Below are positions 1 through 64,000 of a stretch of 64,000 nucleotides of DNA, piece by piece (within the stretch, counting starts at the first letter, position 1; every line of letters begins with the position of its first letter). Source of the stretch: Umbilicaria muhlenbergii. Its lineage: Eukaryota; Ascomycota; Lecanoromycetes; Umbilicariales; Umbilicariaceae. Under the pieces are notes generated by a model, which saw nothing but the letters and a program-made list of their open reading frames with translations, had not been told where the DNA came from and did no database searches. The translations under genes and the position numbers were made by a program. The DNA lies in NCBI GenBank assembly GCA_000611775.1, contig KK106984.1, forward strand, positions 1,642,364 to 1,706,363, given 5' to 3'.

Positions 1-1860
1 TCCGCGCCACCGCCTGCGAGGTCCTCGCAAAACAACTGTACTTATCTCCTTACCCCTTCCCATTCCCCCTCCCATCCCCCCCCCCGGGCCGGGGGTTCCA
101 TTCACCCCCCTCATCCACAAATCCCCCCCAACCTCCGCGCCCTACCCGGCCATCCAGCTAACCACCCCCCAGCATCGAAACAGAAGAAGACCAAGACTAC
201 CTCCTCCAAGAAACGCTCCTAAAACGCTACTCCACCCTCACGCACTCGCACCCGACCCCCCCCTCCAACGTGATCGAAACAGCCGTCGACCAGCACGCCC
301 TGCGCATCATCGCCTCCTCCGGCTACCAACGCTGCATCTCTTACCTATGGCGGGGCTGGCTCATCCAAGACGACGCCAACCCGGCCAACTTCGTCCCCTG
401 GCCCAACCGCGCCACCACCTCCTACCGGCCGCACTTCGACCCGGACCGCATGCGCGCCCCCGTGTACCAGAACGTCGTGCAGATTTTCTTCAGCTTGCTG
501 TACTTGGCGCTGTACACGGTGGCGATCAACACGATCAATCGGAGCGGGGATCTGGATACCGTCGAGGGGGTCTTGTACGTCATGACGGCCGGGTTCGTGT
601 TTGACGAGGTCAGCAAGTTTTGGAAGGTCGGGCGGTATTATGTCGGGTTTTGGAACGTGTTTAATTTGACGCTGTATGCGATTTTGACGACGAGTTTGAT
701 CACGAGGCTGGTGGCGTTGGGACATCCCGTGGGCGCGGAGGAGAGGCTGCGCTTTAATCATTTGAGTTATAATTTCTTGGCGTTTAGTGCGCCCATGTTT
801 TGGATGCGCTTGCTGCTTTATTTGGATACGTTTCGGTTCTTTGGCGCCATGATGGTGGTGTTGAAGGTTATGATGAGTGAGTCGTTGATCTTTTTTGCGC
901 TGCTGGTTATTGTTATGGGTGAGTGCCGGTCCCTTTCCATAACCGATCGATCTTCTTTGGTATTGACGGCTGTCCAGTTGGCTTCCTCCAAGCTTTTGTC
1001 GGCATGGACCAGGCAGACGATAGCAAACAGGTGACGAGCTTCATCGTCCAGTGAGTATATGCTGCTGAGAGGCCAGTCTACAGGATTGACGCGCCGATTA
1101 GGTCTATGGTCAATGCTGTCATGCAGTCGCCGGATTTCGATGGCTTCGAAAACTTTGCTCCGCCGTTTGGTATCATTCTCTACTACATCTTCACGTTTGT
1201 GGTGATGGTTGGTAAGCTGAAGCAACCTGGTGCTTGGTGTCCGACTAGATGCTAACAGCCTTTTGCTAGTGCTCTTGAACATCCTGATCGCCTTGTACAA
1301 TAGCGCATATTCGGATATAACCGACAATGCACTCGACGAGTACATGGCTCTCTTCTCGCAAAAGACGATGCAATTCGTTCGAGCTCCCGACGAGAACGTC
1401 TTCATAGCACGTAAGCTGCAAATAACTTTTCCCCGTGTACCATAAGCCCAGCTAATTCCCTTTAATTTAAGCCTTCAATCTGATCGAGATCTTCTTTCTT
1501 ATCCTCCCCTTCGAATGGTGGATGCCTAGGGAGCGCTACGAACGTCTAAATAACTTTGTGATGGGCGTCATCTACTCTCCTCTCCTTCTCATAACTGCCC
1601 ATCTGGAAACGAAACAAGCATACGAGGTGAAACACAATCGGAAGCGCGGCGAGCAGGATGATGATACTATCGAAGAGTGGGAGCAGATGCTAGGTGATGT
1701 TGATTTTGAGGCCGAGGGGTGGGCAAAGAAGGTTGAGCGGACGAAGCCGAATGTCGAGACGGATGCTGCGGTTTTGGAGGTTAGAGAGTTGAAAGAGAAA
1801 ATGGGGGAGCTGCTTAAGCTGGTGGAGGGATTGAAGGATGGGCTTAATGGTTCTCCCTAG
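1..1860 (+). CDS. YVC1: YVC1-like vacuolar TRP cation channel (5' partial)
   Basis: This is the fungal TRP-type channel that releases Ca2+ from the vacuole. The gene is cut by the window edge. Exons read by eye: <1-37, 173-918, 978-1050, 1102-1211, 1270-1410 and 1472-1860, giving 497 codons in one frame. Seen: several hydrophobic segments from about 470 to 920, then the pore region FAPPFGIILYYIFTF followed by the S6-like VLLNILIALYNSAYSDI, and a charged C-terminal tail with coiled-coil-like heptads. These match the Yvc1 family closely. The first intron (38-172) is very C-rich with a weak donor (GTACTT). Composition changes from C-rich to G-rich near 480. The stop codon overlaps that of the convergent gene on the other strand. 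The family is clear; the N-terminus lies outside the window. Confidence 0.9.
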
Positions 1861-2651
1861 TAAGCTGCTGCCTTGCTCTTGAGCATTCTCGATTCGAGGT
1901 ATTCGATGAATTCGAACTCAAATAAAGCGTTGCTTTCCACACGATGGGGAGAGAATATAACATCGGCCGGCTCAGGGAAGTCAACTTCGACATTCAAGGC
2001 CTCGAGCTCGTTGATCGAGATGAGGGAGTCCACCCATTGCATTCTGGGGACCCCCTGCCTGATTTCCGTCATGCTGCACTCTGTGAAAGTGCAAACCGTA
2101 AGGTCAAGCGTCCCGAGCCGTAGTTTTTGGCCAATGTAATCGAGCGCAGAACTCCATAACTTGTGTCTCCGCTTGGCACCCTCTATCTCCACAATGAAGC
2201 ACAGGCGTACGCGCTTGATTTGTGCTAACGACGTGAGTGGCCGATCACAAAGAAAGGGGATGATAGCTTGCATGCTGCAGAAGTTGAATCTGTTCATGCC
2301 GTAGAAGATCGGGACGGCTTCTGTATTGATTTGTCGGCAAACGGAGAAGAGACGCGTACTCCTGATCTTGTCTCCACAGCGGCACCAATCATACTCGTAG
2401 GTAGTACGCGGATCCGGCTCGGACGAGGCCGTTTCCCAATATCCTGCGTCCTGGGCGTTCATGAGATAAGTACTCCTCCGAATGGGAGGACGAGTTTCTT
2501 TAAAGTACTCAAAGTCCGGGGGATACATGTCCGTGACCATGATCCAGCGGTCGGAGACGAGGGCGAGGTTGTAGATCATGTTCCTGATTTCGGCCGGCAA
2601 CTTGAGGAAAGGGAAGTGTGCCTTCTCCCTGGGCACGTCAGCATAAAGCAT
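1857..2651 (-). CDS. 2EXR / F-box-like domain protein
   Basis: Single-exon gene of 264 codons. Near its N-terminus it has FPFLKLPAEIRNMIYNLAL, the signature of the fungal 2EXR domain, which resembles an F-box (L-P-x-E-I-R-x-x-I-Y). The rest has the layout usual in this large family: a middle part with RLFSVCRQINTEAVPIFYG, then a less conserved tail. Function is unknown for most members; the motif suggests an adaptor role, which is inference. The frame stays open upstream to 2675, but the first true ATG is at 2651, eight codons in, so I start there. An unseen 5' exon is possible. The stop codon overlaps the stop of the convergent YVC1 gene. Confidence 0.7.
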   Translation of the reverse strand: MLYADVPREKAHFPFLKLPAEIRNMIYNLALVSDRWIMVTDMYPPDFEYFKETRPPIRRSTYLMNAQDAGYWETASSEPDPRTTYEYDWCRCGDKIRSTRLFSVCRQINTEAVPIFYGMNRFNFCSMQAIIPFLCDRPLTSLAQIKRVRLCFIVEIEGAKRRHKLWSSALDYIGQKLRLGTLDLTVCTFTECSMTEIRQGVPRMQWVDSLISINELEALNVEVDFPEPADVIFSPHRVESNALFEFEFIEYLESRMLKSKAAAY

Positions 2652-3234: not shown

Positions 3235-6200
3235 CTATGCCGTCCCGTTAGCCTTCTGCTCTTCCGCTTCCAGCTTCGCCAATTCCTCCTGTTTTACTCT
3301 CTCCTCTTCCGCCTTGATTTGATCAGGTCTCCTGATAGCAATGTCTTTCGGTCGGAAGTCGCTGAAGGCTTGCTTGAGTACCTTCTCAATGACCCAGCAT
3401 CCAACATAATCCAAGATCATAACAGTCGTCATGGTTAGCTTGAATGCATTGGAGAATGGGACTAGCCTGAGCTTCTGGTTCAACTCAGGGATGAACTCGG
3501 TGGAGCAGGAGAAAGCCACTCCTGATACCAGGATGATTCCCCAGTACATGCCGCGGTTCTCGCTGATCGCTTCTCTGAAGGGACGTCCTTGATAGTTGAT
3601 AGCAAAGGTGGAAATCTGTTGGATAAGTTGCAAAAGGTAAATGGCGCTATTCAAAAGGGAGGGCTCAAATTCGCCTTCGAGGTCGACATTATCCGAGCGT
3701 GGCTCTATCTGGTGGACGTAGTTCGAGATGTATATAAGGGTGACGATGTGGATAGCAAATTGCCCGAGAACGGATCCGATGATGTAGGGGTTGAAGATAT
3801 TAGGTTGAGGTCGCTCCTTTGATAGACCTTCCACACTCTGGACAACGTCAGCAGCAGCATCTTTGTAACCTGAGAAGCATTACACACCTTGGCTCTGGAG
3901 ATCGACAAGAAGCAAACACTCATGAGCATGCCACTAATGGTGACCTGGCCGTCACCAAACTTGATCCCCTCCAGATATAGTACACTCAGACTGTACGCGC
4001 TAATCAGACAGTTTAGGGCAAGGATTTTGTACATCTGAATAGTTGCAACTAGAGTGCAGCGACCTTGGCGAATGATGTTCGGAATAGCAATGACGTTCGC
4101 AAGCTTGCTTGTGAACGGTGCAGCCACGGATGCATCCCCAAGCTTGATGGTTGGAGGTTCATTCTCATCAATCTCTTGCTCCATCATTGACGCCGTGAGC
4201 TTGTCAGCAAGACCAGCTGCCGCTTTCTGAGCGTTGGCTTGCCTTTGTTGAGCAGGTGTGAGCTGCTTGTTAGCGTCTTCGATGGCTTTTGCACCAGGTG
4301 AAGTAATGGTGGTCATGCCGTTAGCTTTGTCCTTCGAATCCGAGTTCGCAGCAACCGCACCAGCTGAACTCTTCTTTTCCGCTTCGCGTAACATGGCTTT
4401 CTCATAATGAGGGTTGCTGGGTCCTGGTGGATATATATGCGCGATTTGAACAGGTACAGGTGGCGCTGGCTGATTGAACCTCTTCATCATCGAAACCTGT
4501 TTCTCGTAGATTTCCTTCATCTTCGTTATCCGGAAATGCTCCGATATCCTGTTTAAATCGTCTTGGGAACCATTCAGCAGGGCAACCCCGATATGAGCTT
4601 GCTTCAGTGCACCAACGTCATTTGTGCCATCACCGCACATGAGCGTTGTATAACCCGCATCTTTCAGTCCCAGTAGAATCTCCTCTTTCTGCTTGGGAGA
4701 TACGCGGGCATAGACCCAGGTGTGTCGTAATAGCTGAGGAAGAGCAATCTGGTGCTTGTATTTCGCCAGTGCATATCCGGTCACACAAAGATCTTTGTTG
4801 GCCACAATCTCCGGGTCCAGGGGCTTACTCGGATCGACAGGTATATTAATCTTCTCATCAACGCTTCGCCACACAAGTTTCTCACCGGAATCGTCATTTT
4901 CGGGAGCATCGAGGATGAGCACTTCGCGATCGACAATGTCGACCTGCCGCGCCACATGAACTGCAGTAAGTGGATTGTCACCCGTAATCATGACCACGCG
5001 ATGGCTGCTCTGGTTGAGCATCTGTACCGCTTTCTTTGCATCTTCCTTAAGAGGGCACTGCAATACTAGGAAGCCGGCAAAGGTGAGGTCCGCCTCAACC
5101 TCCTCTCGCTTTAGATTGTTGATTCGCGTTTGGCCCAGTTCTGATTCAGTAGAGAGGTACCTATACCCAAGAGCTAGGACTCTGCCTCCGTTCCTCGTAA
5201 AATACTTGAAAGTCTCCTCATAGTTCGGTGGTGTCTTGGACAACATGGTTCGAATTGTCTCTGGAGCGCCCTTAACACCGACAAAAGTGCTCCTAATCTT
5301 CTTAGACGTAGCTCTGTCGGTAGTGACAACCGTTGCAACAGAGCTCTGTCGTTTGAGCGCAGAGGAGAATTGAAAACGTCGTTTTATCTGTACGACATTG
5401 CCTGCCGATGAGTCTCCCTTACTTGAGCTTGCGGCGCCGGCAGTAAGTATGTCGTTACGGCCAAGTGTCCATCCGAGCGATGTTAGGGTTGCCTTCTCCA
5501 TTGGGTCACCCACAATATCGCCTTCATCAAGCTTCACAAGAGCATGTGCGGTAGCAAGGACGAGCGTAGTCTGTTGACCAGCATCAAGCACGGGCGTAAG
5601 TTTGCTATGAGCTCCGTCCTTCTCAACTACCGCATCACTTCGTCCTAGTGAGAGCCCGGCTATGCCGTCCACAACAAGATCCTCGCCGGTCAAAGTCCCA
5701 GTCTTATCGAAACAGGCGATATCCACCCTTCCAGCAAATGGTATTCGGAAGGGTTCCGTGCAAAAGATAGCATATCGGCTAAGAGCAGCGAGACTGGTGT
5801 TAACAGCAAGACTGAGCTCCATGGGTAGCTCTGGTGGGACAACGCTGGTAATAATCAAAACGCAGTCAAGCAGTAGTTTTGACCGCTTACGATCCTTGCT
5901 AACACCTTCTTGCCAGACATACCACGAGGCCGCAATGGCGAAGATGAGTAGAAACAGGATGAACAAGAGGGCTTCCGCGTTGTTTGCTGATACTCTTTCG
6001 GTCGAGTAAATCATTGTGCGGACCAAGCTACCTTGACTCGTCTCGAAACCAGTCTTGACAACGATCGCCATGGCCCCGTTATCAGGAGCGGGTTTGACGC
6101 CTGAGGCTAAGGTTGGTACCTTGTCCGGCTCATCATCGCTTGCGTTGCCATGCGTAACTTGAAGGACCTTGGTACCGCCGTAAAGGAAAGCGTTCTTGTC

Positions 6201-7612: not shown

Positions 7613-9590
7613 ATGGAAAACGGCACTGCATTGCCGGAGAGGCCCAAAGAAGAGAACAAGGCACCGAAAGCGAAGAAACAGCCCAAAGAGCCCAAGCCGC
7701 CAAAAGAACCCAGAGCTCCACCACCCAAGAAAGAGAAAGTACCAAATGCGCCGACCGCTCCAACAGACCCTAACTCCATGTTCAGGGAGGGCTTTCTCAA
7801 GACAGTACACAGCGAGAAACCGTCAGAACATGTCATCACCAGATTTCCGCCCGAGCCCAATGGCTTCCTCCATATTGGACATAGTAAAGCTATTGCTATA
7901 AATTTCGGATTTGCGAGATACCATGGTGGTGATTGCTATCTTCGGTTCGACGACACCAATCCAGAGGCAGAAGAGGAGAAATATTTCGTTGCTATAAAAG
8001 AGATGATAGAATGGCTTGGTTTCAAGCCGTACAAGATTACATACTCAAGTGACAACTTCGACAGACTGTACGAGCTAGCAGAGGACCTAATAAAACGGGA
8101 TGGCGCCTATGTGTGCCACTGTACCGGTGTGTATTTAGGGGGTTTTGCACCGCTTGCCCTATGTGCTGACACCATATCCAGATACGGAGGTGAAGCTTCA
8201 GCGCGGAGGGGAGAATCACGGTCCACGGTACGCTTGCTCACACCGTAGCAGACCAAGGGAAGAATCCCTAGCAGAATTCCGGGCTATGCGAGATGGGAAG
8301 TACAAGCCGAAAGAAGCTTTCCTACGGATGAAGCAGAATCTGGAGGACGGCAACCCTCAAATGTGGGATCTGTCCGCATACCGAATCCTGGAAGCTGAAC
8401 ATCACCGGACGGGAAGCAAGTGGAGAATATACCCAACCTATGACTTTACCCATTGTTTGTGCGATAGTTTTGAAAATATTTCGCATTCGCTATGTACTAC
8501 AGAGTTTCAACTATCAAGAGTGTCCTACGAGTGGCTATGTGACGCATTGGAAGTTTACAAGCCAATGCAGAGAGAGTGAGTTTCCAAAACCGCCTTGGCT
8601 TATAGCTACTAACGATGTTGTAGATATGGCCGACTTAATGTCACTGGTACAGTACTTTCGAAGCGGAAAATCGCCAAATTAGTCCACGAAAACATTGTTC
8701 GTGGATGGGATGATCCTCGACTCTACACCCTAATCGCTCTTCGACGTCGCGGCATCCCTCCCGGCGCGATCCTATCCTTCATAAACGAGCTTGGCGTATC
8801 AACCGCCCTCACCAACATCCAACTCGCTCGCCTAGACCAGTCCGTCCGGCGCTACCTCGAACAAACAGTCCCTCGTCTAATGCTCGTACTCGACCCCATT
8901 CCCGTCGTCATTGACAATCTCCCCGATGATTTCCTAGAAGAGATCGAACTACCCTTCTCGCCCAAAGACCCCTCAATGGGTAGCCACGTCGTCCCATTCA
9001 CGAAAACAGCCTACATAGACCGAAGTGACTTCCGCGAAGTGGACAGCAAAGACTATTTCCGACTCGCCCCCGGAAAAGCAGTCGGGCTTCTGAAAGTCCC
9101 ATTTCCCATCAGCGCCACCTCCTTCGAAAAAGACGAATCCACCGGCCTAGTGACCAAAGTCCACGCCCACTACGAAAAGCCAGAGGAAGGCGCTACGTTC
9201 AAGAAACCCAAGACTTACATCCAATGGGTAGCCTCGTCACCGAAACACAACTCGCCCATCAAAGCCGAAGTCCGCTTTTTCAACTCCCTCTTCAAATCCG
9301 AGAATCCGGACGGAGCTGAAGGCGGCTTTCTCAACGATGTCAACCCTGACAGCGAAGAGATCTACCCCAACGCGATTATCGAAACTGGGTTGCTTGAGGT
9401 GCAGAAACGAGCCCCTTGGCCGGCGGTGGAGGGGGAGAAAGATGTTGCGGCTAAAGCGGCGGGACCGGAGACGGTGCGGTTTCAGGGACTGAGAGTGGCG
9501 TATTTTGCTATGGATAAGGATAATGCGGAGGGAAAGGTGGTGCTTAATAGGATTGTGAGTCTGAAGGAAGATGCGGGGAAGGCGACGTAG
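7613..9590 (+). CDS. GLN4: Glutaminyl-tRNA synthetase, cytosolic
   Basis: Charges tRNA-Gln in the cytosol. Exons 7613-8126, 8182-8575 and 8624-9590 give 624 aa. Seen: class I signature [17 protein letters not shown] (the HIGH motif) near residue 85, the [14 protein letters not shown] strand, [16 protein letters not shown], the KMSKS equivalent [10 protein letters not shown] after the second intron, and the two beta-barrel anticodon-binding domains in the C-terminal half. The N-terminus is only about 60 residues rich in Lys and Pro, in place of the roughly 190-residue YqeY-like domain known from yeast Gln4. The second intron (48 nt) carries a clean CTAAC branch site. Late codons become G-rich after about 9415. 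Confidence 0.95.
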
Positions 9591-10273: not shown

Positions 10274-11560
10274 ATGATACCACTCTCGCTGCCTTATAGC
10301 GATGAACCAACGCAATATGTGTGGGGCTCACCGAGCGGGAATCTCAAGTGAGCTTTGAGGGACATCTCATGCGAATGGCCGTGTGCGTTAAGCATCTACT
10401 GACCAGGTCACAGCTTTTGCGAGGAAGTAAGGCCCCTTCTCGGCGTGAAGGATAATGGAGGAGTGCTCAATCCTAACCCAGGACTCTGTTGTCACACCCT
10501 ACATTGTCGAATTCGTGAATACGCTCAGTAATGTCACATACAGTAATACGCACCCGAATGACTGAGGAGATTGAGCAAATGTTGACAATAGAGCAGTCAT
10601 CTTCGCCTATCACGGCATGCGAAGAAGCTGGCGGGATAAGTCCGTTTCTAACTTAACCTGCCTACCCTACCTAGGGCTGTTCGCGGTGGGAGTGGGCTCT
10701 GGGCTTTTTCATGCCTCGTTGCAGCGCTCTCCTCAGATCTGTGCGTAACTCAACTCCTGTTGTGGCCATGAGTCCATGAGCGCTACTTCGTTCCTGATTT
10801 TGTTTCATTCTCTCTCCCAATTCTTAACGTCAGTTCCTTAAAAGGGCATTACGAGTTGACGCCTTCTTCTTTCTCCCTCTTAGCCGACAGCCTCTCCATG
10901 CTCCTTGCCACCGCCTTCGTCCTCCAGCGTGTCCTCACTTACAACAAACCCCCAACATACCGCAGAAATGCGACACTGTTGATAATCACCAGTCTCCTGA
11001 CTTTCTCGACTTATCATATGAGGTACAATGATATGACATCGCACAGTCTTGTATTCGGCACCATGATTTTTGTGGTGGGCGTCAAAACAATGGCGTTGGT
11101 AGAGAGTATTAGGGATGAGAAGGTGAAGAGGAATGTTAGGAAGCTTGGGAGAGTGGGAGCTGGTGAGTACCTTTTTCTTTGGCTTTGTCATTTTTGTGGC
11201 AGTATTGTGGAAGGCTGAGTGTCGAGCAGTTACTTTTGTTGGCGGTTTTGCGCTCTGGCTTATCGACAACTCTGCCTGCGATTCTCTGCGTTCATTTAGG
11301 AGAAAGATAGGAATGCCATGGGGTTTTCTGTTTGAGTTGCATGGCTGGTGAGTTTCTTGTTTCTAACGCAAAAGTGTAATGCTGAACGAGACAGGTGGCA
11401 TATTCTGACTGGAATTGGCGCTTACGTATTTATTGTTATGGCGGAGTTCTTGACCTTGAGGGACGATGGAACTACTTCAGGTGAAATGTATGCGTGGCCG
11501 GTGTCTGCTTTCTTGGGCGCCGATGCGGAACAGCTGGGAAGGGCTGCCAAGAGATATTGA
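10274..11560 (+). CDS. Alkaline (phyto)ceramidase, YPC1/YDC1 family
   Basis: Membrane-embedded hydrolase of the ER/Golgi that cleaves ceramide to a sphingoid base and fatty acid. Seven exons rebuilt by eye: 10274-10347, 10414-10426 (13 nt), 10482-10542, 10597-10740, 10884-11162, 11203-11347 and 11395-11560, giving 293 aa with no frame break. Family landmarks all appear in order: an acidic N-terminal Ca2+-site segment NFCEEDSVVTPYIVEFVNTL, the zinc-ligand motif GSGLFHASL, the catalytic-Asp region QISDSLSM, and the last zinc ligands in ELHGWWHILTGIGAY (H-x3-H). Hydrophobic stretches between them fit the seven-helix fold. Boundary of exon 4 is the least certain (acceptor at 10596). A telomere-like repeat sits just after the stop. 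Confidence 0.85.
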
Positions 11561-14428: not shown

Positions 14429-15546
14429 ATGCCACCCCGCTCCCTCAGAATGGCCGCGGAAATCATTGCCCTCTCCGAAATCCCCACCCTCTCCCTCCTC
14501 TACAAACTCAAGCACCTCGAACCCCACTCCACCACCACCGCCTTCCCCCCCTCCCAACGCCTCAACGACACAATCTCCCTCATCCGCACAGACATCACCA
14601 CCCTCGCCGTCGACGCCATCGTCAACGCAGCCAACGAGTCCCTCCTCGGCGGCGGCGGCGTCGACGGCGCTATCCACTCCGCCGCCGGCCCCGGCCTCCT
14701 GCGTGAATGTCGCACTCTGCACGGCTGCGCGACCGGCAGCGCCAAGATGACGGACGCATATGAGTTGCCGGCCAAGAAGGTGATTCATGCGGTGGGGCCG
14801 GTGTATTGGGTTAGAAAGAGGGAGGGGACGCAGGAGGGGTTGCTCAGGGGTTGTTATAGGCGGAGTTTGGAGTTGGCGAAGGAGGGGGGGTTGAAGAGTT
14901 TAGCGTTTAGTGCGTTGAGTACGGGGGTTTATGGGTATCCGAGTGGGGAGGCGGCGGAGGTGGCGGTGGGGGAGGTGAGGAGGTTTTTACTGGAGGAGGA
15001 GGAGGCTGGGAGGGAGGGGTTGGAGAGGGTGGTGTTTTGTTGTTTTGAGAGGAAGGATGAGAGGGCTTATGAGGAGTGGTTGCCGTATGTGTCGTCATCT
15101 CTTGTCCTCATCCTTTCCCCAATCTCCCAACGATAAATCACGTTTGTGGGTGTTGGTTTATTGATTAAGCTAACGGAACCCCCCGCAGCAAATTCTTCCC
15201 CCCAACCGAACACGATCTCTCACCCAAAGACCAAGAAAAGCAATCGCGCGAGGGTGAGTTACTGGCCGATATGCCCGATCCACCCACAGGAGAACCACTC
15301 AGCGAGGGACAGCCCGAGGCTAAGAAACAAAAGGTCGACTCTGATGAAGCTCTCGATCAGGATTGGGAGGAGATTGAGAAACCGGAATTCGAGCCTGCAG
15401 ACGACCTGATGGCTAGTAAGGGTGATATGAGCGAGGAAGGGGAGCTGGTTAAGGCGTCGGCGGCGGAGGAGCAGAGTTCGACGGCGCTGCATACGGCGGA
15501 GGGAGGGGGAGATCCGCCGCAGAGTGGGCTGCTGAGGGATTGGTAG
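14429..15546 (+). CDS. Macro-domain protein (ADP-ribose binding/hydrolase type)
   Basis: Exons 14429-15084 and 15189-15546, giving 337 aa. The macro domain is plain: DAIVNAANESLLGGGGVDGA (about residues 63-82) with the ADP-ribose-binding loop, then AAGPGLLRECRTLHGCATGS, KVIHAVGPVYW and the second loop ALSTGVYGYPSGEAAEVA. Members of this MacroD-type group remove ADP-ribose from proteins or process ADP-ribose-1''-phosphate. The second exon encodes a disordered acidic tail with a basic KKQK patch, a possible nuclear signal. The coding sequence is C-rich up to about 14730 and G-rich afterwards, an extreme case of the skew switch described under findings. The upstream Met was chosen; a second Met lies eight codons later. 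Confidence 0.88.
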
Positions 15547-16962: not shown

Positions 16963-18163
16963 CTAAGAAACTGCCGCCACCCTCCTCCCAATCTCCTCAC
17001 AAACGGCCTCCGTAACCTCCTTTGTTCCCGCAGTCCCTCCCAAGTCTCTTGTTTTGATCCCTGCTTCACAGACATTCTCGATACACTCTAATAACCTCTC
17101 CGCTACCTCCTCTTCACCCAACCACCTCAGCATCTCCACGCACGTCCAAAATGTAGCCACCGGATTTGCAACCCCCTTCCCAGTAATATCGAAGGCGCTC
17201 CCATGGATTGGCTCGAACATACTCGGGTTTTGCCTCGTAGGATCGAGATTACTCGTCGGCGCTATGCCGATACTGCCTGCCAGACTAGCGGCCAGGTCAC
17301 TGAGTATGTCTGCATGGAGATTTGTGGCAACGATAGTGTCTAAGCTCTCCGGTTGCAGCACCATCCGCGTAGTCATCGCATCCACAAGCATCTTGTCGCA
17401 CTCCACATCTGGGAAGTCCTTGGCTACGATCTTCGCAACCTCGTCCCATAACACCAACCCATTCCGCTGCGCATTACTCTTCGTCACAACAGTAATCTTC
17501 TTCCTCTTCCTGTTCCTAGCGATCTCAAATGCGAACCGCATTAATCTTTCTACCCCATGCCGTGTGAAGATCGAGACTTCGGTGGTCACTTCCCACGGTT
17601 GACCGATATGGGTGCGGCCCCCTTGGCCGGCGTATTCACCTTCGCTGTTTTCGCGAATGATCACCCAGTCGAGGGAGCCGGGCGGGCAATTTTTGAGCGG
17701 CGAGGAGAGGCCGCGCAGGACTTTCGTGGGGCGCACGTTGGCGTATTGTTGGAGGGGCTGGCAAATAGCGAGGCGCAAGCCCCAGAGCGAGATGTGGTCG
17801 GGTACGTCTATGTGCAGGAGACGTTAGCTGGAATATCTGAATGTATGCCGGCTATGTAATGGACCAGGGCACCAGAGGGAGAAATGGACTCGGCAGATTC
17901 GGGGCGGGCTTACCAGGCGCGCCCACGGAGCCGAAGAGAATGGCATTGTACTTCTTCAATGACTCCAGTCCGCCTTCAGGGATGTAGTATCCATGCTTTT
18001 TGTAGTAGTCACTACCCCACTCGATGTGGTCGAAGTGAACGTCGAATGTCCCCACCGTTGCAGCGAGTTTCTCAAGGACTTGGATGCCGGCGCTGATGAC
18101 CTCGGGGCCGATACCGTCGGCCGGGATAGAGGCTATCTTGTAGACTTTGCGGACTGACAACAT
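16963..18163 (-). CDS. Tartrate/D-malate dehydrogenase-type beta-decarboxylating dehydrogenase
   Basis: Member of the isocitrate/isopropylmalate dehydrogenase superfamily, oxidising a hydroxyacid with NAD and a divalent metal. Exons 18163-17914 and 17807-16963 give 364 aa. Seen: N-terminal IPADGIGPEVISAGIQVLEKL, FGSVGAP then DVPDHISLWGLRLAICQPLQ across the splice, substrate-site IIRENSEGEYAGQGGR, catalytic Lys region KITVVTKSNAQRNG, metal-binding Asp run DAMTTRMVLQPES and NLHADILSDLAA, and adenine-binding FEPIHGSAFDITGKG. The SLWGLRL motif and the EGEYAGQGGR loop favour the tartrate dehydrogenase/decarboxylase group over leucine biosynthesis; exact substrate is inference. A 106-nt intron splits the gene. 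Confidence 0.88.
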
Positions 18164-19300: not shown

Positions 19301-19309
19301 TACTCCACA

Positions 19310-20962: not shown

Positions 20963-21916
20963 ATGCCCCCCCGCTTCCTCCCCACATCCCCCCTCCTCCG
21001 CACGACCCTCCCCCCCTTCCTCACCCTCCTTACCTACCTCCCCATCGGCATCTTCCTGAACGACAACTACTTCCAACTCATGCGCATCACGGGTCCCAGC
21101 ATGTACCCCGTCTTCAACAACGACTGGTACTCGCACGGGAAACTGAGGCGAGATGTCGTGCTGGTGGATATGCGCAGGGCGTGGACGAGGGAGAAAGAGG
21201 GGGGGTTGAGGAGGGGGGAGGTGGTTGCGTTTTGGTGAGTCTGAGGTGGTGTGGGTCTGATTGTGGGCCTGGGTATGAGAGGGGAGGAGGGGAGCAAGAG
21301 AAGTGGAGATAGGGGGAATGGGGAGGGATGAGGAGGGATGAGAGGGTGTATACTGAGATGATCTGGGAAATGGCCAGTCACTAACGGTATGGTATATGAG
21401 AACAGGTCGCCTCAAAATCCAGAAAACATGATTGTGAAGCGCATCATTGCGCTCGAAGGCGACATCGTTGCCACGCGCGCCCCGTACCCTTTTACGACCG
21501 AGACGGTGCCGCTGGGGCATGTGTGGGTGGAGGGAGAACACCCGGAGGGGAGGATGAGTTTGGATAGTAATACTTATGGACCGGTGAGTGCGGATTTCCT
21601 GGGTTCTGCTCTATGAGCGCTGGGATGGAGCGAGGAGGGTGGGGTGTAGGGAGGGAAAGGAGTGGATATTAGAAAGCATGTGGAGAGCGGAAGGGAAAAG
21701 AGAGGGGAGATGATAAAGAGATTGGGAACGATGGGAATGGGAGATTGAGGCTAGGTGCTAATGTTGCGGTGCTTCCAGATCGCAAAGAGTCTGATAGCGG
21801 GGAAAGTGAAAGGAATTGTGTGGCCATTCGCCAAGGCCGGGTTCATGAGGCAGGAGGACTATAAGGGTAGTTCAAGGGTCATCGAGGGGGACGGACCGTA
21901 CCCAGTTGTGAGTTGA
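20963..21916 (+). CDS. IMP2: Mitochondrial inner membrane protease subunit 2 (IMP2)
   Basis: Signal-peptidase-like serine protease that matures proteins sorted to the mitochondrial intermembrane space, working as a dimer with Imp1. Exons 20963-21234, 21406-21583 and 21779-21916 give 195 aa, the usual length. Seen: an N-terminal membrane segment (residues about 16-32), the nucleophile Ser in ITGPSMYPVFNN, the general-base Lys in MIVKRIIALEGDIV, and the family's GHVWVEGEHPE and SLDSNTYGP boxes. The 171-nt first intron and the 195-nt second intron are long for this window and strongly G-rich, while the first 100 coding bases are C-rich. Confidence 0.92.
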
Positions 21917-33920: not shown

Positions 33921-33964
33921 GGATTTGTAGTGGCATGGTAGAGACAATTCTCAATGTGCTGTCG

Positions 33965-41266: not shown

Positions 41267-44200
41267 TCAACCCCTCCTCAACTCCTCCATCCTCCCCCGC
41301 AACCTCTCCCACCCCTCACTCCCCTCCCACCCCTCCCTCGCCCTCCCCAACACACCCCTAACCGCGCTCCTAGCCTTGAATTTCCAATCCTTACAAACCA
41401 ATTCCCCCTCCCCTTCCGCATCCCCGTCTGCATTCCCCTTCTCTTCCGCATCCCCACCGCGCTCGCGTCTTCTTCCGCCAAGACTCTCATAAGCGTCCAC
41501 CAACTCCCCCGTCGCATCCACCACCTCGCTCCAAGCCTCCTCAGCCGCAGCCTCGCCCTGTTGTTCCCACCCCACCCGGTTAACGGCGACGCGCCACGCT
41601 TTTTCGTACGCCCCCAGCGCCTCTCCCGGCCGGTGGAGATGCAGCGCCAATTTCGCGACGAGCAGGTGCAGCCGGCGGGACGTGGTGATGAGGGGCGCGA
41701 CGTGCTGTTCCACCAATCGGACGACCATTTTCTCGAGTCCCTTGAGGGGTTTCCGCGTGCTGGTTTCGCCTACGCCGCCGGTGTCATGGCTTTCCGTGGC
41801 CGTTCCAGCGCCAGCTCGACGTTCAGCGCTCAAGGCGACCACGTGCGCGACCAGCCCCTCGACGATCTCGACGTCGATGCATTTTTCGCCGTCGACGGTC
41901 CCGCGCAGTTCGATCAGCCGCTGTTGCGCGACGATGATGTCGGCGTACGGGGGGGGCGAAATGGTCGCGCAGACGGTGAGCAGGTTGTGCCAGATGCGGT
42001 GGGAGGTTCGGTTTAGGGTTGCGGCGCGCTTGAGGGCGACAAGCGCTTCGTGGGTGTGCCGTTGTTGTGGGTCCACTGCCTCCTTTTTCTTTCTTGTAGT
42101 CGAGACATTGTCGTCGTCGTCGTCGTCGTCATCATCATCATCATCAAGAACCACAGCAGCGCGAGAAGCAGCACCCTCATCCGAAGCCGCTTCCCCGGGC
42201 TGCAACCGCAACAGCGCCGCCGCGAGGTTCGACCACGCCTCCGCGTCCCCGTCTTCGATCTGCACGCACCGCCCAAACGCATCCACCGCGCCGCGCCAGT
42301 TTTGCAGTTCCAAGCGCACGCACCCGAGCGCGAACCACGTGCTCTGGTTCTGCGGGTTCGTCTTCAGAGAAAGCGCATACGCCGTTTCGGCTTCGGGGTA
42401 GTTTTTCGCGGCGAGGTGGTACTTCCCGAGCGAGCGCTGGGCGCGCGCGTAGCGGTTCCCCGAGACGAGCCAGGCGCGGGAGTAGTGGGAGGGCGTGTGC
42501 GTGAGGTCGCCGAGGATGCAGAAGAGGCGGGGGGCGTCTGCTGGTAGTGGATCGAGTTCTGGGCCGAGGAATTCTTCTTCGGGCGCGGTGAGGTCGGAGT
42601 TGTTTTCGTCGAGGATGGTGATGGCGGGTAGGGGGGTGGAAGGGTGAGTGGTGGTGGCGGGTGTGGGTTGGTAGAGTTGAGAGCGCACGATTCGGAGCGC
42701 TTTGTCTTCGCGCTCGACGGCTGCCCAGCATAGTGCTGCTTCTGCCCACATCTGTAGGCGTTCGTAGATCTCGAGCGCGGTTCGTAGGCCGCCTAGGGAG
42801 ACCCAGCGGGCGGCGAGCTCGGCTTCGAGTGTCCAGCGGGTGGGCGAGGCGAGAGGGTGGATGTATTGGAGGCGTTCGGAGACGGAGGCAGATTCAGAGG
42901 GTTTGGGCCGGGGGAGGAAGGTTGTGGAGGGATTTGTGCTGTTGGTAGAATCTGATGACTCGGTTGAAGGGTGGGTGCTGGTGGTTTCGGCGATTACTTG
43001 GTCGACGAGTGCTTGGAGTTGGAGAACGCCGCGTTCGATTGTTCGGGATCGGTAGCCTTCGATGCGGCTGCGGACGAGGAGGGCTTGTGTGTATACTTGC
43101 CAGTTTGTGCTGCCGCCTTCGAGGACGCGGGTGGCGTAAGGGAGGGTTTCTTCCCGGGTGAGACCGTGTTGGGGCGAGGTGTTGGTTATGGAGGAGGCGA
43201 GGGATAGGAGGATGATGGAATCTAGAGGTTTTAACACTGGCTGGTTGGCTGGATCCAAAGAAGAAAGTGCTGCGGGTAGGTTCTCCTCGTCCGCCATACC
43301 AAGCGAGGTTGCAGATGTCTTCGAAAAGGAGATCGACTCGAGTAAGGTGTCATCATTCAAATCCAAATTCTGTGGCTTCGAAGCCGTAGAAGTGGGCTTG
43401 TCTGGCTCTTGACTGCCTTTCCCATCTTGCGAGACCTTATTGCTTGCAACCACATCCTCATCTGCACTCTTAGCCAAAACAACCAGCTGACTCAACTCCT
43501 TCTCCTGAAACTTCGTCCTCTTCCCCAACCTCCCCGTAAGCGCAAATTGAAACCCCGTCTCCTTCGCCGCCCTATCAAGATCCTCCCTCGCCTTCACATC
43601 AAAGCCATGATAAGTATGCACAGCTACTCTCTCCAGTAGAAAGTGCACCTTCGCTTCCTTACTATACCGTGACTTCTCCCCCAAGACCCTACCACCAAGA
43701 AACTCCAGATCCCGGTATATGCTCTCTTGCAGGGAAGCAGCATTCTCGCTCAACATCCTCTGATGCCAGAAATTAACCCTCAACGTCGCCCACCGCGTGT
43801 CTTCATCTTCCCTCACCACCGCCGGATGGTTCAAGATACACCTCGCCAAGCAAAAGAGCTCCACGTCCGGCGTCAACTGGTACGCCGCCTCTCCATCAAC
43901 CGTGAGGCTCGCAACAGCTTGCCTGCGCAGCTCCTGCACCTTGGCCGCATCCCGCCGTAACGCATCCGGAAATACTATCTCGCTCGCTCTCCACGACAGC
44001 GGAGGTCCGGTCACGTTTGACTGCAGAAAGGCATGCAGCGCTGCGATACCGAGAACGACAAAATCCGCACGAGACGCTCCCGATTCCACATTCGAGGTAT
44101 TGGCGAACTCCCCATCTCTCTCGAGAGCATCATTCCAGTGCTGCTGGAGATCCAGCCACGACCAATGACCGAGACCTTCCGCTGCGGGCCGCAGCAGACT

Positions 44201-44347
44201 CTGTGCCAGGGGGGATGTGAGAATTTTGCGGAAGTCGCCCGCTTCTAGACTTTGCAAGCCGGGAATGGCCTGCTTGCTATAGCCGTCTTCGAGTAAAGAG
44301 TGTAAAGAAAAGCTCGACAGGGGAGAGAGAAATGGAAATTGCGACAT
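41267..44347 (-). CDS. TTC27/Emw1-type TPR protein
   Basis: Large intronless gene of 1026 codons encoding a tetratricopeptide-repeat protein of the TTC27/Emw1 family, essential in yeast and linked there to cell-wall integrity. Seen: N-terminal helical region with ADFVVLGIAALHAFLQSNVT, RCILNHPAVVREDEDTRWAT, TYHGFDVKAREDLDRAAKET then FQFALTGRLGKRTKFQEKEL, and, in the C-terminal half, TPR units such as RSLGKYHLAAKNYPEAETAY, NQSTWFALGCVRLELQNWRG and AEAWSNLAAALLRLQPGEAA. A run of 12 Asp interrupts the TPR array near residue 740. The frame is open upstream to 44383 but lacks an ATG there; 44347 is the first ATG and begins MSQFPFLSPLSSF. Coding composition is uneven, C-rich and G-rich blocks alternating. 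Confidence 0.88.
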   Translation of the reverse strand: MSQFPFLSPLSSFSLHSLLEDGYSKQAIPGLQSLEAGDFRKILTSPLAQSLLRPAAEGLGHWSWLDLQQHWNDALERDGEFANTSNVESGASRADFVVLGIAALHAFLQSNVTGPPLSWRASEIVFPDALRRDAAKVQELRRQAVASLTVDGEAAYQLTPDVELFCLARCILNHPAVVREDEDTRWATLRVNFWHQRMLSENAASLQESIYRDLEFLGGRVLGEKSRYSKEAKVHFLLERVAVHTYHGFDVKAREDLDRAAKETGFQFALTGRLGKRTKFQEKELSQLVVLAKSADEDVVASNKVSQDGKGSQEPDKPTSTASKPQNLDLNDDTLLESISFSKTSATSLGMADEENLPAALSSLDPANQPVLKPLDSIILLSLASSITNTSPQHGLTREETLPYATRVLEGGSTNWQVYTQALLVRSRIEGYRSRTIERGVLQLQALVDQVIAETTSTHPSTESSDSTNSTNPSTTFLPRPKPSESASVSERLQYIHPLASPTRWTLEAELAARWVSLGGLRTALEIYERLQMWAEAALCWAAVEREDKALRIVRSQLYQPTPATTTHPSTPLPAITILDENNSDLTAPEEEFLGPELDPLPADAPRLFCILGDLTHTPSHYSRAWLVSGNRYARAQRSLGKYHLAAKNYPEAETAYALSLKTNPQNQSTWFALGCVRLELQNWRGAVDAFGRCVQIEDGDAEAWSNLAAALLRLQPGEAASDEGAASRAAVVLDDDDDDDDDDDDNVSTTRKKKEAVDPQQRHTHEALVALKRAATLNRTSHRIWHNLLTVCATISPPPYADIIVAQQRLIELRGTVDGEKCIDVEIVEGLVAHVVALSAERRAGAGTATESHDTGGVGETSTRKPLKGLEKMVVRLVEQHVAPLITTSRRLHLLVAKLALHLHRPGEALGAYEKAWRVAVNRVGWEQQGEAAAEEAWSEVVDATGELVDAYESLGGRRRERGGDAEEKGNADGDAEGEGELVCKDWKFKARSAVRGVLGRAREGWEGSEGWERLRGRMEELRRG
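42111..42146. repeat. Trinucleotide microsatellite encoding poly-Asp
   Basis: On the plus strand a block of GTC repeats is followed by a block of ATC repeats; on the coding (minus) strand they are GAT then GAC codons, giving 12 consecutive Asp in the TTC27-type protein. Confidence 0.9.
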
Positions 44348-44933: not shown

Positions 44934-47760
44934 TCACCTCCTTCTCCGCCTCTCCCCCCTACGCCCACCCCCCCCACTCTCCCCGCTCTCTCCACTCCCC
45001 GTATCCTCCCCCCACTCCCTCCTCATCAACCCCTCCGCTTGCTCCCTCCTCCTCTCCATCTCTATCCCCGCCTCATCGCCCGTCCTGGTCCTGATAAACG
45101 ACCCCATCCCGAGCGGACTGCGTTCCGTCCTCACCCGCCTAGTGGTCGGAGCGGGTCGCTCAGCGGGGCGGTAGGACATAGCCGGCACCCCCAACGACGA
45201 CAGGTTCGTCCCGGGCCCGACTTCCGCGGCCAAATGACCCGGGTGCGCGGGACTGGAATTCGGAGAGCGCGACCCAGGCGATGGCGCATAGTGACTGCTC
45301 CCCCCCGAATGCGTGGGTCGATGCCAATCCGGCTGATACCCCGTCTCCTCCCCCAGATCCTCCACCGAGTCCGCCCACTCCGGTTTCCGGTCCGACTCGT
45401 CCCCCAGGTCGAACACCTGTCCCCGAACCGGTTCGTTCATGTACGCCCCGCCGGGCTCGCGTTGCGCCTGCTGCGCGAAGAAGTACTTTTTGCGGTCTTC
45501 GTCGCCCATGATGCTTTCGACGCGACGCGGCATGTAGACCGAGTTGCTCGTCGACGCACTCGTGACGAAGGAGTCGAAGGAGTCGCGCGGGTGCAGCGGG
45601 ATGTGTGGCGCGTCCGGGTTGCGGGGGAGCATGTTCGGGAGGGTGAGGCCGGAGTCGTTGTAGGGTTCGTACCAGCCGCCGGGAAGTCGCTCTGCGGGCG
45701 CAAAGCGGCCTTCTAGGTAATCCATAGGTTGCAGGGGTACGGGGCCGGGGCGCTTCTCGGGATGTTGGGCCCGTACCGCGGGTTTGAAGGTCTCAGGTAC
45801 GACGTTGAGGTCATCGCCGGTGGCAATTGCATGCTCGATGGCCTGTTGCGGCGTTGTGTGCGTATCGGCGGCTCCGGCATCGGCTCGTGGTCCACCCCAT
45901 GTACGTTGTCCGGCGGTGAAAATACCGTATACCATGTACACCCAGTTGAAGAAGGGATTAATTAGGAACATTACGGGGTAAAGCCAAAGCTTGTAACGGT
46001 GCAGCTTGGCACCAAAGTAAAGCATGAGCAGCCAATTAAGTCCCAGCGAGACGGCGATGAACCCAACCGGTAGGTTCTTGATCTTATTCGAGGTGGTGAT
46101 GACGGAAAGGACCATGATGAAGAACAGTAAAGCGGTCGTCCGAATGGTGTTTTGCATGAAGCGTACGACAATGAGCAGTGGATATCTCTTCCACAGCCGT
46201 ATATCGGTCAACATGCATACCTCGTTAGTGATGAAGCCTAAGAACCACCTTCGGCGCTGCTTCAAGAGACTCTTGTATGTCTGCACAGCTTCGGTCTTGC
46301 AGAACGCCCCAGTGCACATCTGGATTTGATAGCGTTCTTTTGCGCCAATCATGAATAGATGGGTCAACCATCGATCCTCTCCAAGGTGACACTTGCCGTA
46401 ATCGAAAAGGTCATCGCATTGCTCGGCCTTGTCAGCAAAGTAGTATTTGGCCATCTTTCGGAAGGCTGAGAATCGAAGCATGGTAAGAGCGCCTGGCAAA
46501 CAGGTGACGGAGCCACAGCCAGATTCTACAGATCGTTCGAAGAGCTGACCGTGAATGTATTCCATGTCTTGTAGAAGCGTGATGAGGGAGTTCTTTTCTG
46601 TTGTCGCAGTGATGACACCAGTCATGGCCAGCATGTTCTGTTTACTGCCCGGCTTGAGCTCCTGCACGGAACAAACCACATTAGCACATCTGCCACATGA
46701 TTGCTGACGTTGAAACATGCTGCCGAGACCCACGTTCCACAGAGCGTGGCGTAGTGCCCTGCATCCGCCGCAGGCTAAGGGGTAAACGACTCACCATCTC
46801 GTACATGAAGTTCTGAATGCACACTTTGTCTAAAATGCAGTCCGAATCGATGAACAAAATGAAAAGGTTGTCGTTTCTCTTGAGATACTCGGTATAAATC
46901 TTATCAATGAGCTTGAACGTGGACTTCTGGCAATGTCTCTTTCCGCCATGAGGAAACCTCGACACCGTTATTCTGGCGGTACGATACGTGACATCGATAC
47001 TCTTGGGATAACTCTCCAATGTCAGCGGCACCCCTAGCTGTTCGATCGTCTTGAGGTATAGCTCGTCCTCCTGGTCACCATCGAATGAGAGAAAGACATG
47101 AAGACACGAGGGAGGATAGTCGCAGTCCACAACCGAATCAATCGCCGTGACCAACACCTCCGGCTCTTCCTTGTACACCGGCATTACTATGACGGTCTTA
47201 GGAGCCGAGCCTTCATCCAGGACGTGCTTGATTCGCTTCGTACGACCAAGATTGTTTGTAACGAGTTGATAGACGCAAAATAGCCACGGGATTGTCAGTA
47301 GACCGGCGAAGGTCCAAAACGCGAACCATTGGAGGAAAGACACCATTGATGCTGGGAAGTATTGGGTGATTTGAGCCGGCAAAGGGAGTGTAACGATCAT
47401 AATAGGGAGGAAGATGGCTCTATTAAGAAGGGTCAGTACCATCCGGCCCTTTCGTTTGCGCGAGTGGCTCACCTCAGAGCCGTGAAGAGTATCATCATGA
47501 CCACGGCCAGCATTCTGATACTCCAGTGTTCGGCTTTTTGAAACACTTTTACCAAACAATAAAGGAAGGCGGCGAGCCAGAGAAACCACTCCAAGAAGGC
47601 CATGAGCATCGCTGTGCCCATGATTGAGACATAGATGATCTGTTGGAGTTTACCGGTAAGTTCAATGTCTCCTTCAATCTTGTTTGGACATGCCACTCAC
47701 ATCCTTCTTGGGCCATGGCGCCGTAATCGGCGGCACCCCGCTACCGTACTCGCTGTTCAT
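44934..47760 (-). CDS. Chitin synthase, short form without myosin motor (probably class VI, ChsD-like)
   Basis: Plasma-membrane glycosyltransferase family 2 enzyme polymerising UDP-GlcNAc into chitin. Exons 47760-47701, 47639-47473, 47419-46795 and 46661-44934 give 859 aa. Seen: paired N-terminal membrane helices (YVSIMGTAMLMAFLEWFLWL), catalytic domain with KTVIVMPVYKEEPEVLVTAI, the SDG-like LFILFIDSDCILD, acceptor-site CLPGALTMLRFSAFRKM, the ED motif in GEDRWLTHLFMIGAKER, and the product-site QRRRWFLGFITNE, then C-terminal helices and a 300-residue disordered Ser/Pro/Arg tail. No myosin motor or cytochrome-b5 domain is present. Class assignment rests on length and motif wording from memory and is less certain than the family. 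The last intron (133 nt) lies inside the catalytic domain. Confidence 0.9.
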
Positions 47761-57670: not shown

Positions 57671-57707
57671 TGGTTTGTATGGGGGATAAATGGTCGCAGG
57701 GGGGCGG

Positions 57708-61979: not shown

Positions 61980-63137
61980 ATGTTCATCTCTCGGTCTTCT
62001 TCCCTGCTCGGACTGAGTGTCCTCCAGCTGCTACACTTGTGCACAGCCAACCCTCCCTGCACCGATCTAGTCATCCCTATTACAGCCGCAGCGACCAACG
62101 AGGTCATCCCTATCCCCACCACGCTAAACTACAGCGACCCCGCTGCCGTCTCCGCATTCATTCAGACTATCATCGGTGACGCAGATGCACTCTACCCAGG
62201 CATACCTACGGGTGGCACTTTTCAAATCAGCGCCCGATTCTGTGAGCCTCAAGTCAGCGTCGCCAGCCGTCACAATACCATCCAGCTCTTGGTGCACGGC
62301 GTTACAGAAAACAAGTTATACTGGTCCGGCTTGGGCTACCCTGTTGGATACAATGGTGACATGTACTCGTGGATCGCGTACGCCTCCTCGAAGGGCTATC
62401 CAACCCTGTCCATCGATCGAATCGGCAACGGCAACTCCACGCACCCGGATCCCATCCTACAACAGCAAGTCCAACTCGAAGAAGCCGTTCTCCACCAACT
62501 GGTCTTGAAATTAAAATCTGGAGCCGCAGTCCCAGGGCGAGCATTCAACAAAGTCATCTTCGTCGGCCATTCCTACGGTTCCGTTCTGGGCAACGACATG
62601 GCAACCAACCACCCAACCGACATCGCCGCCTTCATCCTCACCGGCTTCGGCGTCAGCATCATCCCCGTAGCCGTCGACCTCCCGCAAACGGTCCTCTTCC
62701 CCGCCGTCCTCTACGCCCCCCGCTTCGCCGGCTTCAACCCCGGCTACCTCGTCACGTCCTCCGAGCTCGGCCGCCGCGGCTACCTCTGGGGCGCCCCCGG
62801 CTCTTTCGACGAGGGCATCTTCCTCATGGACTACAACAACGAAGACGTGGTCGGCATCGGCGAGCTTCTCTCCATTGCCGGGGGTCTGAAAGAGGCGCCC
62901 GCGTACACGGGGCCGGTCTTCGTGGTGACCGGCTCGAATGACGATGTTTTTTGCGAGGCGGCGCAGTGTGGGATGGGGTCGGCGTCGCCGCAGGCGATGT
63001 CGGGGGCGCTGTTTCCGAAGAGTTCGAACTTTTCTTACTCGGAGCCGGTGGGGACGGGGCATATGATTAATTTGCATTATTCTGCTCAGCAGTCGTTTGC
63101 GGCGTCGCATAATTTCTTGGAGGCTAATGGGTTTTGA
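61980..63137 (+). CDS. Secreted alpha/beta hydrolase
   Basis: Intronless gene of 385 codons. The frame is open from 61824, but the Met at 61980 starts a clean signal peptide (MFISRSSSLLGLSVLQLLHL, cleavage likely near CTANP), so it is chosen. Seen: IQLLVHGVTENKLYWSGLGY (the HG oxyanion strand), YPTLSIDRIGNGNSTHPDP, the nucleophile elbow VIFVGHSYGSVLGNDMA with Ser, the acid in VVTGSNDDVFCEAAQ and the catalytic His in GTGHMINLHY, a complete triad in the order of the AB-hydrolase-1 fold. Substrate is unknown; many fungal relatives are annotated only as hydrolases or esterases. Composition is C-rich to about 62830 and G-rich after 62920. Confidence 0.88.
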   Translation: MFISRSSSLLGLSVLQLLHLCTANPPCTDLVIPITAAATNEVIPIPTTLNYSDPAAVSAFIQTIIGDADALYPGIPTGGTFQISARFCEPQVSVASRHNTIQLLVHGVTENKLYWSGLGYPVGYNGDMYSWIAYASSKGYPTLSIDRIGNGNSTHPDPILQQQVQLEEAVLHQLVLKLKSGAAVPGRAFNKVIFVGHSYGSVLGNDMATNHPTDIAAFILTGFGVSIIPVAVDLPQTVLFPAVLYAPRFAGFNPGYLVTSSELGRRGYLWGAPGSFDEGIFLMDYNNEDVVGIGELLSIAGGLKEAPAYTGPVFVVTGSNDDVFCEAAQCGMGSASPQAMSGALFPKSSNFSYSEPVGTGHMINLHYSAQQSFAASHNFLEANGF

Positions 63138-64000
63138 GGGGATGTTGAGTTTTGCGTTCGCTGAGGGATGAGCGCATTTACTGATTTTAAGGGCATCTGT
63201 GGTGTAGAAGTCTTTCAGTCGAGTAGTCATGTTTTGTGTTTGAAATCTGTTGAAGAAAGATGCAGTTAAAAGTCTTTTCTGTGTTCAGGCTGGCCCCTTG
63301 ATGGTAGTGCTGATTTGAAGGCTAGGGGAAGTATGGCAGGAAGTAGTCATCACAGTCAATGTATGCTATAAAGTCTATAATATATACATCAAATCATCGT
63401 TGATCAGAGTTTCCCGTAAATAGTAGCTCTAACTTAATAACTTCTATAAAAACCTATAAAGTACACAATTTTTCCATCTTGATAGGTGGGTAACGCAGTC
63501 CTGCAGGGTACTCCGTAGTTCAAAGCACATGAGAGGGGGTACTCGGGGGTAATTAACCATACAGACAGCCCCCAGATCCTGCTGCTGCAGAACTTGTCAG
63601 AGAAAATAGGAGTTGAGGGTGAATGTAGGGAGTAGACAAGCGATTGTCTTAGTATTGTTCATGATCTTTCTGTAGGACGGTTTGAGGTTTCACCGTCCAA
63701 GCAGTCAGAGCGGGGCCTTATAAGTGAGCCATTCCCACCTTGATTTTAGGGAGCTAGGCCGTTCCTTATGCAACAACTTTAACGAGAATAGCAGAAAAGA
63801 GAATCACATTTCGCTTTGCGTAAAGTAGGGGCATTTGGTACTAGCATGTGCAGAGCTGATAAACTAAGTGGTACCATGATAGCTGCTCTCTATCAAGGCT
63901 GCGACCCGCAGGAAGAAACGTAGTGATTGGCCTGCACAGACCTTTCCTCTTCGTCTCGGACTTGCACGTCGTCTTCTGTAGTAGCAACTTCGTTCGCCAC
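63138..64000. other. Intergenic to the window end
   Basis: No supported gene. Bases 63360-63480 are AT-rich with several repeats of TATAAAG/CTATAAA-like words, possibly a degraded element, but no family is recognisable. Confidence 0.4.

Follow-up and report, generated by a model that had tools for sequence, protein, structure and literature searches.

Abrupt C-to-G switches within genes of Umbilicaria muhlenbergii as a single-gene form of the fungal 5'-C/3'-G gene skew

The abrupt changes from C-rich to G-rich sequence that occur within genes of this fungus are the single-gene form of the published fungal gene skew, in which the coding strand is biased towards C at the 5' end and towards G at the 3' end, and their features do not resemble those expected of replication origins. 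When GC skew was followed along the sense strand, a C-to-G change point with a log-likelihood gain (dLL) above 10, the property by which a step gene is defined here, was present in 32 of 57 gene models, the opposite G-to-C change was present in none of the 57 at the same threshold, and 25 of the 57 genes had no step. The pattern is real, strong and of a known kind, and its step form, the mirrored composition of its two sides and the accompanying rise in GC content merit follow-up.

The window, i.e. the whole stretch of 64,000 nucleotides that was analysed, comprises bases 1,642,364-1,706,363 of one contig of a 34.8 Mb assembly in 7 contigs. The genes are of fungal character, with a chitin synthase, an SPO71-like gene and short introns. 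A further 240 kb sampled elsewhere in the assembly was added, and the combined sample was split into 204 kb with a GC content of about 50-54% and five 20-kb pieces of 32-39% GC. The gene analysis covers the 204 kb only, with the five AT-rich pieces left out. It is based on 57 complete gene models, all with predicted starts and stops, from a home-made gene finder that was trained on the same 204 kb. For 44 of the 57 models the predicted frame matched a Pfam family (E at most 0.001), two of these 44 scoring under the Pfam curated cut-off. Since 13 models had no Pfam match, and these include 5 of the 32 step genes, among them three of the four strongest, the main counts were repeated on the 44 Pfam-matched genes. 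In this set the C-to-G change was found in 27 of 44 genes, 15 of these 27 being on the plus strand, and the G-to-C change again in none of the 44.

Twenty complete gene models overlap the window, one of which starts 422 bp outside it, and 14 of the 20 are step genes. The first-pass annotation had listed 14 sharp upward jumps, mostly inside exons, and these are confirmed: each site has a GC-skew step of 0.57-1.32 between adjacent 150-bp windows (at least the 96.8th percentile of the window, and at least 0.83 at 7 of the 14), and each of the 14 step genes of the window holds one of them. The maximum-likelihood change point fell at most 112 bp from the listed site in 11 of 14 cases and deviated by 272, 793 and 459 bp for the sites at 38110, 42370 and 45540. 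The step genes of the window, the borders between convergent neighbours and the assembly gaps are as follows.

1-1860, plus strand: YVC1-like channel, its model beginning 422 bp to the left of the window; step gene, jump at about 462
7613-9590, plus strand: glutaminyl/glutamyl-tRNA synthetase family; step gene, jump at about 9422, 169 nt before the stop
14450-15546, plus strand: macrodomain gene; jump at 14648 (gene fit) or 14743 (window scan), within the Macro domain (14621-14965); exon 2 of the model (15190-15546) is uncertain
16963-18163, minus strand: isocitrate/isopropylmalate dehydrogenase family; step gene, jump at about 17561, within the domain (Iso_dh)
20963-21616, plus strand: signal-peptidase-like; step gene, jump at about 21122, G-rich block extending across an intron
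21616-22111, no strand: convergent intergenic stretch; sharp G-to-C switch 61 bp off the midpoint
22112-25078, minus strand: SPO71-like PH domain gene; step gene, jump at about 22332, 221 nt before the stop
25922-26518, plus strand: glycolipid transfer protein; step gene, jump at about 26385, G-rich block extending beyond the stop codon
26518-26844, no strand: convergent intergenic stretch; sharp G-to-C switch 32 bp off the midpoint
26845-30697, minus strand: fused P450/reductase-like gene with FAD- and NAD-binding domains; jump at about 27128, within NAD_binding_1 (27033-27371)
26971-27017: assembly gap in the skewed block of the fused P450/reductase-like gene
31218-31788, minus strand: GNAT acetyltransferase; step gene, jump at about 31440
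35874-38592, plus strand: KilA-N/ankyrin gene; step gene, jump at about 38382 (gene fit) or 38089 (window scan)
39706-41027, plus strand: RNA methyltransferase (Methyltransf_10); jump at about 40443, within the domain (40212-40544)
40676-40735: assembly gap in the skewed block of the RNA methyltransferase gene
41027-41266, no strand: convergent intergenic stretch; sharpest G-to-C switch observed, 6 bp off the midpoint, dLL 143
41267-44347, minus strand: TPR protein; step gene, jump at about 41577, 311 nt before the stop
44934-47609, minus strand: chitin synthase family; step gene, jump at about 45081, 148 nt before the stop
61980-63137, plus strand: alpha/beta hydrolase; step gene, jump at about 62841, 297 nt before the stop

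Both assembly gaps of the window thus lie within strongly skewed blocks, as had been noticed before. A boundary between domains or fusion partners as the site of the switch was rejected for four genes, in which the jump lies within a single Pfam domain (Macro, NAD_binding_1, Methyltransf_10 and Iso_dh).

Upward steps within genes are more frequent than expected by chance. Those of at least 0.8 (200-bp windows) were present in 13 of 56 genes, against 1.1 expected from shuffling synonymous codons within genes, and downward steps of the same size in 2 of 56 against 0.1 expected. Protein composition alone was rejected as an explanation, since this shuffling removes most steps and the introns also switch. 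The direction of the change is nearly always the same in the different site classes: with third codon positions and introns analysed apart from the rest, 38 upward and 1 downward change points were obtained at dLL > 5 and 30 and 1 at dLL > 8, and codon positions 1 and 2 gave 37 and 3 at dLL > 5 and 24 and 0 at dLL > 8, their skew shifting upward in 46 of 57 genes. The few downward cases appear when the data are split by codon position in this way.

Over the 204 kb (200 bp, steps of at least 0.7), gene models contained 21 of the 25 upward jumps, and 14 of the 20 downward ones were located between models. Four of the 25 upward jumps were counted as intergenic, and one of these, at 11063, lies in a ceramidase-like exon that the gene finder had missed. 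The earlier impression that no comparably sharp G-to-C jump exists does not hold, since downward steps of 1.06-1.16 (200 bp) are present at about 15083, 26714 and 41138. The balance in the window varies with scale: 14 upward against 25 downward steps of at least 0.7 over 100 bp, 10 against 5 of at least 0.8 over 200 bp, and 29 against 29 of at least 0.4 over 300 bp. It was correctly remarked that a C-then-G order reads the same on both strands, but the conclusion that gene direction offers no explanation fails, as the sense strand changes from C to G in plus- and minus-strand genes alike and gene structure accounts for the pattern.

The position of the jump is related to the 3' side of the gene. 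The distance from jump to stop codon has a median of about 300 nt and is uncorrelated with gene length (0.01), whereas the distance from jump to ATG correlates with it at 0.95, from which it follows that the switch tracks the 3' end of the gene. Whichever of the three classes of jump position is considered, the G-rich block crosses zero skew some 150-250 bp past the stop, and it does so later, at about 350 bp, when the neighbours are in tandem. Seven convergent pairs are separated by less than 500 bp. Relative to the point halfway between their stops, the downward change points lie at -6, 19, 32, 44, 61, 206 and 219 bp, i.e. at most 61 bp away in 5 of 7, the pair at 206 bp being one without step genes; the largest likelihood gains (143, 101 and 77) belong to the change points at -6, 32 and 61 bp.

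These borders are important for the proposal, made in the first-pass annotation, that the jumps could mark local replication origins. Forks leaving a jump in both directions, with initiation-linked mutation making the leading-strand-like side rich in G and T, would give the polarity that is found, as well as a composition mirrored about the jump. Constitutive human origins, as described in the part of the paper of Murat et al. (2022; PMC9645720) available to us, also combine upward skew jumps (S-jumps), mirrored sides and a local rise in GC, and about 80% of them are in gene bodies, where many of the present jumps are found too. The GC rise at the present jumps speaks in favour of an origin. 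Unlike at those origins, the skew obeys the borders of transcription units and the stop codon. Origins are expected to be independent of gene borders, yet the polarity resets there over a few hundred bases, with sharp reversals between neighbouring genes and at some borders a return as sharp as the jump itself, and the density, one in 32 of 57 genes, also counts against origins. AT-rich stretches, which are also replicated, have 1 upward and 1 downward jump in 100 kb at z of at least 5 (6 and 1 at z of at least 4), against 29 and 26 in the gene-rich 204 kb at z of at least 5, although decay towards AT may hide jumps in the former. An origin-based reading is thus unsupported and appears quite improbable.

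The switch is seen at all three codon positions as well as in introns and in the flanks of genes. Skew at four-fold sites rises from -0.28 in the first tenth of the gene to +0.30 in the last, that of introns from -0.25 to +0.41 along the gene, and the flanks have -0.19 over the 100 bp that precede the ATG and +0.24 over the 100 bp that follow the stop. Among the 18 strongest genes the four-fold composition (A/C/G/T) is.107/.627/.180/.087 over the 600 bp leading up to the jump and.078/.174/.606/.142 past it, the fraction of C in C/T-ending two-fold codons drops from.834 to.375, and that of G in A/G-ending ones increases from.374 to.802. Across the jump, two-fold sites thus exchange C for T and A for G, and the composition to the right comes close to the complement of that to the left. 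At distances of more than 1000 bp upstream of the jump, genes with steps have the same composition as step-less genes.

Circularity in this comparison was avoided by placing the jumps on codon positions 1 and 2 and measuring composition at position 3. For the 24 genes with dLL > 8 this gave.126/.550/.205/.119 on the left and.145/.528/.214/.112 for the complement of the right. When the threshold is relaxed to dLL > 5 (37 genes), the mirror is weaker, C being.473 on the left against.344 in the complement of the right; in the Pfam-supported set it holds at both cuts (29 and 19 genes). It is also visible without any selection for steps: over the 100 codons at either end of 44 genes, the four-fold composition is.174/.426/.205/.195 at the 5' end and.195/.442/.209/.154 in the complement of the 3' end. 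The two agree within bootstrap intervals at four-fold sites and in the 100-bp flanks, with a less exact agreement at two-fold sites, where the 3' end deviates more from the middle of the gene than the 5' end does. A/T skew is nearly flat along genes on average, and at the four-fold sites of the 18 strongest step genes it goes from +0.07 (interval -0.06 to 0.22) to -0.24 (-0.42 to -0.12). The idea that the jump leaves AT skew unmoved is at odds with the replacement of C by T and of A by G at two-fold sites.

The complementary composition of the two halves could in principle reflect selection on RNA, by pairing of a C/A-rich with a G/U-rich half, or selection on protein composition, and amino-acid usage does shift across the jump in the 18 strong genes (Pro, Ser and Thr down; Gly, Glu and Val up). 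The switch of synonymous sites and introns argues against this, and folding at the jump was no stronger than in synonymous shuffles within each half (18 genes, mean z -0.17, sd 1.28, with two genes at -3.3 and -2.8), which leaves base pairing across the jump unsupported. Such selection is an extremely improbable cause.

GC content is raised where the polarity changes. Four-fold sites of the strongest genes have a GC content of 0.85-0.86 up to 200 bp from the jump, compared to 0.54-0.61 at more than 1000 bp upstream of it. The excess of GC near the jump over the rest of the gene was 0.062, compared to 0.030 (sd 0.006, maximum 0.043 of 100) when the stop distances of other genes were used, and in the Pfam set 0.059 compared to 0.025 (sd 0.007, 100 simulations). 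Step strength correlates with gene GC (Spearman 0.62; 0.64 in the 44 genes of the Pfam set). Among 13 long genes, third-position GC was higher near the jump as well (0.68 and 0.67 against 0.60 and 0.58). Third-position skew in these long genes was -0.16 before the jump, -0.09 at the gene start and -0.13 in the middle; a C-rich block at the base of the jump in long genes was considered and dropped, as the differences in an independent-site test on the 13 genes were within error.

Recurrent recombination, with breaks either between genes or at the jump, would bring together strand-asymmetric mutation and GC-biased gene conversion. The GC rise around the jump and its correlation with step strength fit this, and strand-asymmetric C>N and A>N mutation has been described beside human meiotic breaks (Hinch et al. 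2023; PMC7615360). The polarity that we infer from the available part of that report would give a downward jump at the break. This would place the breaks between genes, where GC is lowest, while the GC peak is at the jump, and recombination is therefore a very unlikely source of the pattern.

McLean and Tirosh (2011; PMC3315797) described that the coding strand of fungal genes is biased towards C at the 5' end and towards G at the 3' end, that the bias extends into promoters and 3' UTRs, and that it is present at four-fold sites and alters amino-acid use, with only a small change in A/T. The order of C and G, the effects at four-fold sites and in flanks, and the amino-acid shift are all found here. 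In the portion of that paper at our disposal the skew is given as averages and linear ramps, and it correlates negatively with GC content. Single genes in the present sample are mostly step-like, not ramp-like. For 29 of the 32 step genes the step outperformed a straight ramp by more than 3 lnL units, and when compared to a 3' ramp with an equal number of parameters, the step was ahead by more than 2 lnL units in 19 of 32 genes and the ramp in 3 of 32. The summed step-minus-ramp lnL was 208.6, compared to -64 (sd 8.5) in data simulated from ramps, and 18 of 32 genes were above all 15 of their own ramp simulations. Averages over genes look gradual despite the steps in single genes. What goes beyond the published description, as far as that portion reaches, are these single-gene steps, the near-mirror sides (including transition-type two-fold sites), the GC rise at the step and the excess of steps in genes with convergent neighbours. 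A narrow search for title phrases, judged by titles, yielded no further paper on opposite gene skews, and the step form may already be published.

The last of these features emerges when genes are sorted by their neighbours. Where the downstream neighbour is convergent, 21 of 30 genes have a step, and where it is in tandem, 9 of 25 (p 0.016); the corresponding counts in the Pfam set are 20 of 25 and 7 of 19 (Fisher p 0.005). These p-values are optimistic since both partners of a convergent pair are counted and are not independent. Together with the mirror symmetry and the flips between convergent genes, this excess suggests one process with two polarities, one for each gene end.

McLean and Tirosh proposed that different mutation or repair regimes accompany initiation and termination by RNA polymerase II, or that C is selected against late in the transcript. 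Either could operate without antisense transcription, and the location of the pattern in genes and its effects in UTRs and at four-fold sites match what they reported. Two unrelated polymerase phases offer no reason why four-fold, C/T-ending and A/G-ending sites should be near mirrors, the flips midway between convergent genes are unaccounted for, and the ramps in the available text are gradual whereas most single genes here are steps. We regard this explanation as unlikely.

The most probable source of the pattern, to which we would give a probability of about 55%, is a substitution process linked to transcription, whose second polarity would be supplied by antisense transcription from the 3' border, the last being an inferred link. 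Both a 5'-C/3'-G gradient and transcription-linked mutation had been named as alternatives in the first-pass annotation, and both fit the data. The substitution process would be strand-asymmetric, with a polarity that reverses inside the gene, and both gene ends would act alike on opposite strands, sense RNA being initiated at the 5' end and antisense RNA at the 3' border. Each start would leave its own RNA-like strand rich in C over the first few hundred bases. The upward jump would then be the meeting point of the sense and antisense fields, and a downward jump a border from which such fields diverge. A bias of C over G at transcription starts is already published for plants and some fungi (Fujimori et al. 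2005; PMC555766), and the sense strand is likewise C-rich at the 5' end of the present genes and just upstream. The abstract of that paper is silent on the 3' end or a switch within genes, both of which are prominent here.

Some properties of the steps are not predicted by the antisense model. This applies to the GC excess near the jump, to the sharpness of the step if the model stands alone, and to the lower frequency of steps in genes with a divergent upstream neighbour, which share a promoter region (12 of 30, compared to 19 of 25 where the upstream neighbour is in tandem). The imperfect mirror, seen at the dLL > 5 cut and at two-fold sites of gene ends, and the 25 of 57 step-less genes count against it.

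A tentative and rather doubtful extension would be that the fungal 5'-C/3'-G gradient is in general an average of discrete steps, that both gene borders imprint the same spectrum in mirror, and that the steps, as sharp limits between sense and antisense, would record past antisense transcription like a fossil map that can be read from the sequence alone. Since 2011 both mutational and adaptive hypotheses have been offered for the fungal gene skew, with no decision between them. If single genes show discrete mirror steps, explanations by polymerase phases or avoidance of C lose ground, and a process whose polarity can reverse is called for. Such a process is open to direct test, as its expected boundary is defined to within tens of bases per gene. 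In genomes with such genes, codon usage, gene finding and skew-based prediction of origins will be distorted. The steps also occur at chaperonin (Cpn60/TCP1) loci, which are outside the set of 57 genes and where 2 of 7 complete models had a step at dLL > 10.

The three short assembly gaps in the 104-kb gene-rich piece probably reflect sequencing drop-out on G-run strands:

26971-27017, short gap
40676-40735, short gap
L010 (a sampled piece, with coordinates counted within it), about 5480-5500, short gap

All three are flanked, within 150 bp on either side, by sequence with an absolute GC skew of 0.47-0.86, the 95th percentile of 300-bp windows being 0.52. At 40106-41083 and 26829-27458, in the strongly skewed blocks, both strands carry long open frames, spread over several reading frames, and these could misdirect gene finders.

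Very strong steps from C-rich to G-rich sequence are present in four predicted exons without a Pfam match:

L025:4000-4743, in a gene of which a different exon has an MFS match
L010:4877-5464, orientation from the gene finder alone
L012:5243-6136, likewise
L017:4212-4826, likewise

Our home-made gene finder overlooked one exon, within which falls the upward jump at 11063 that had been scored as intergenic:

10772-11215, a ceramidase-like exon that matches Pfam PF05875 at E 1.1e-12

Outside the window region, GC content is 32-39% in five of the ten sampled 20-kb pieces (L013-L014, L015-L016, L023-L024, L027-L028 and L029-L030) versus 51-54% in the other five; the genome is composed of AT-rich and gene-rich compartments.
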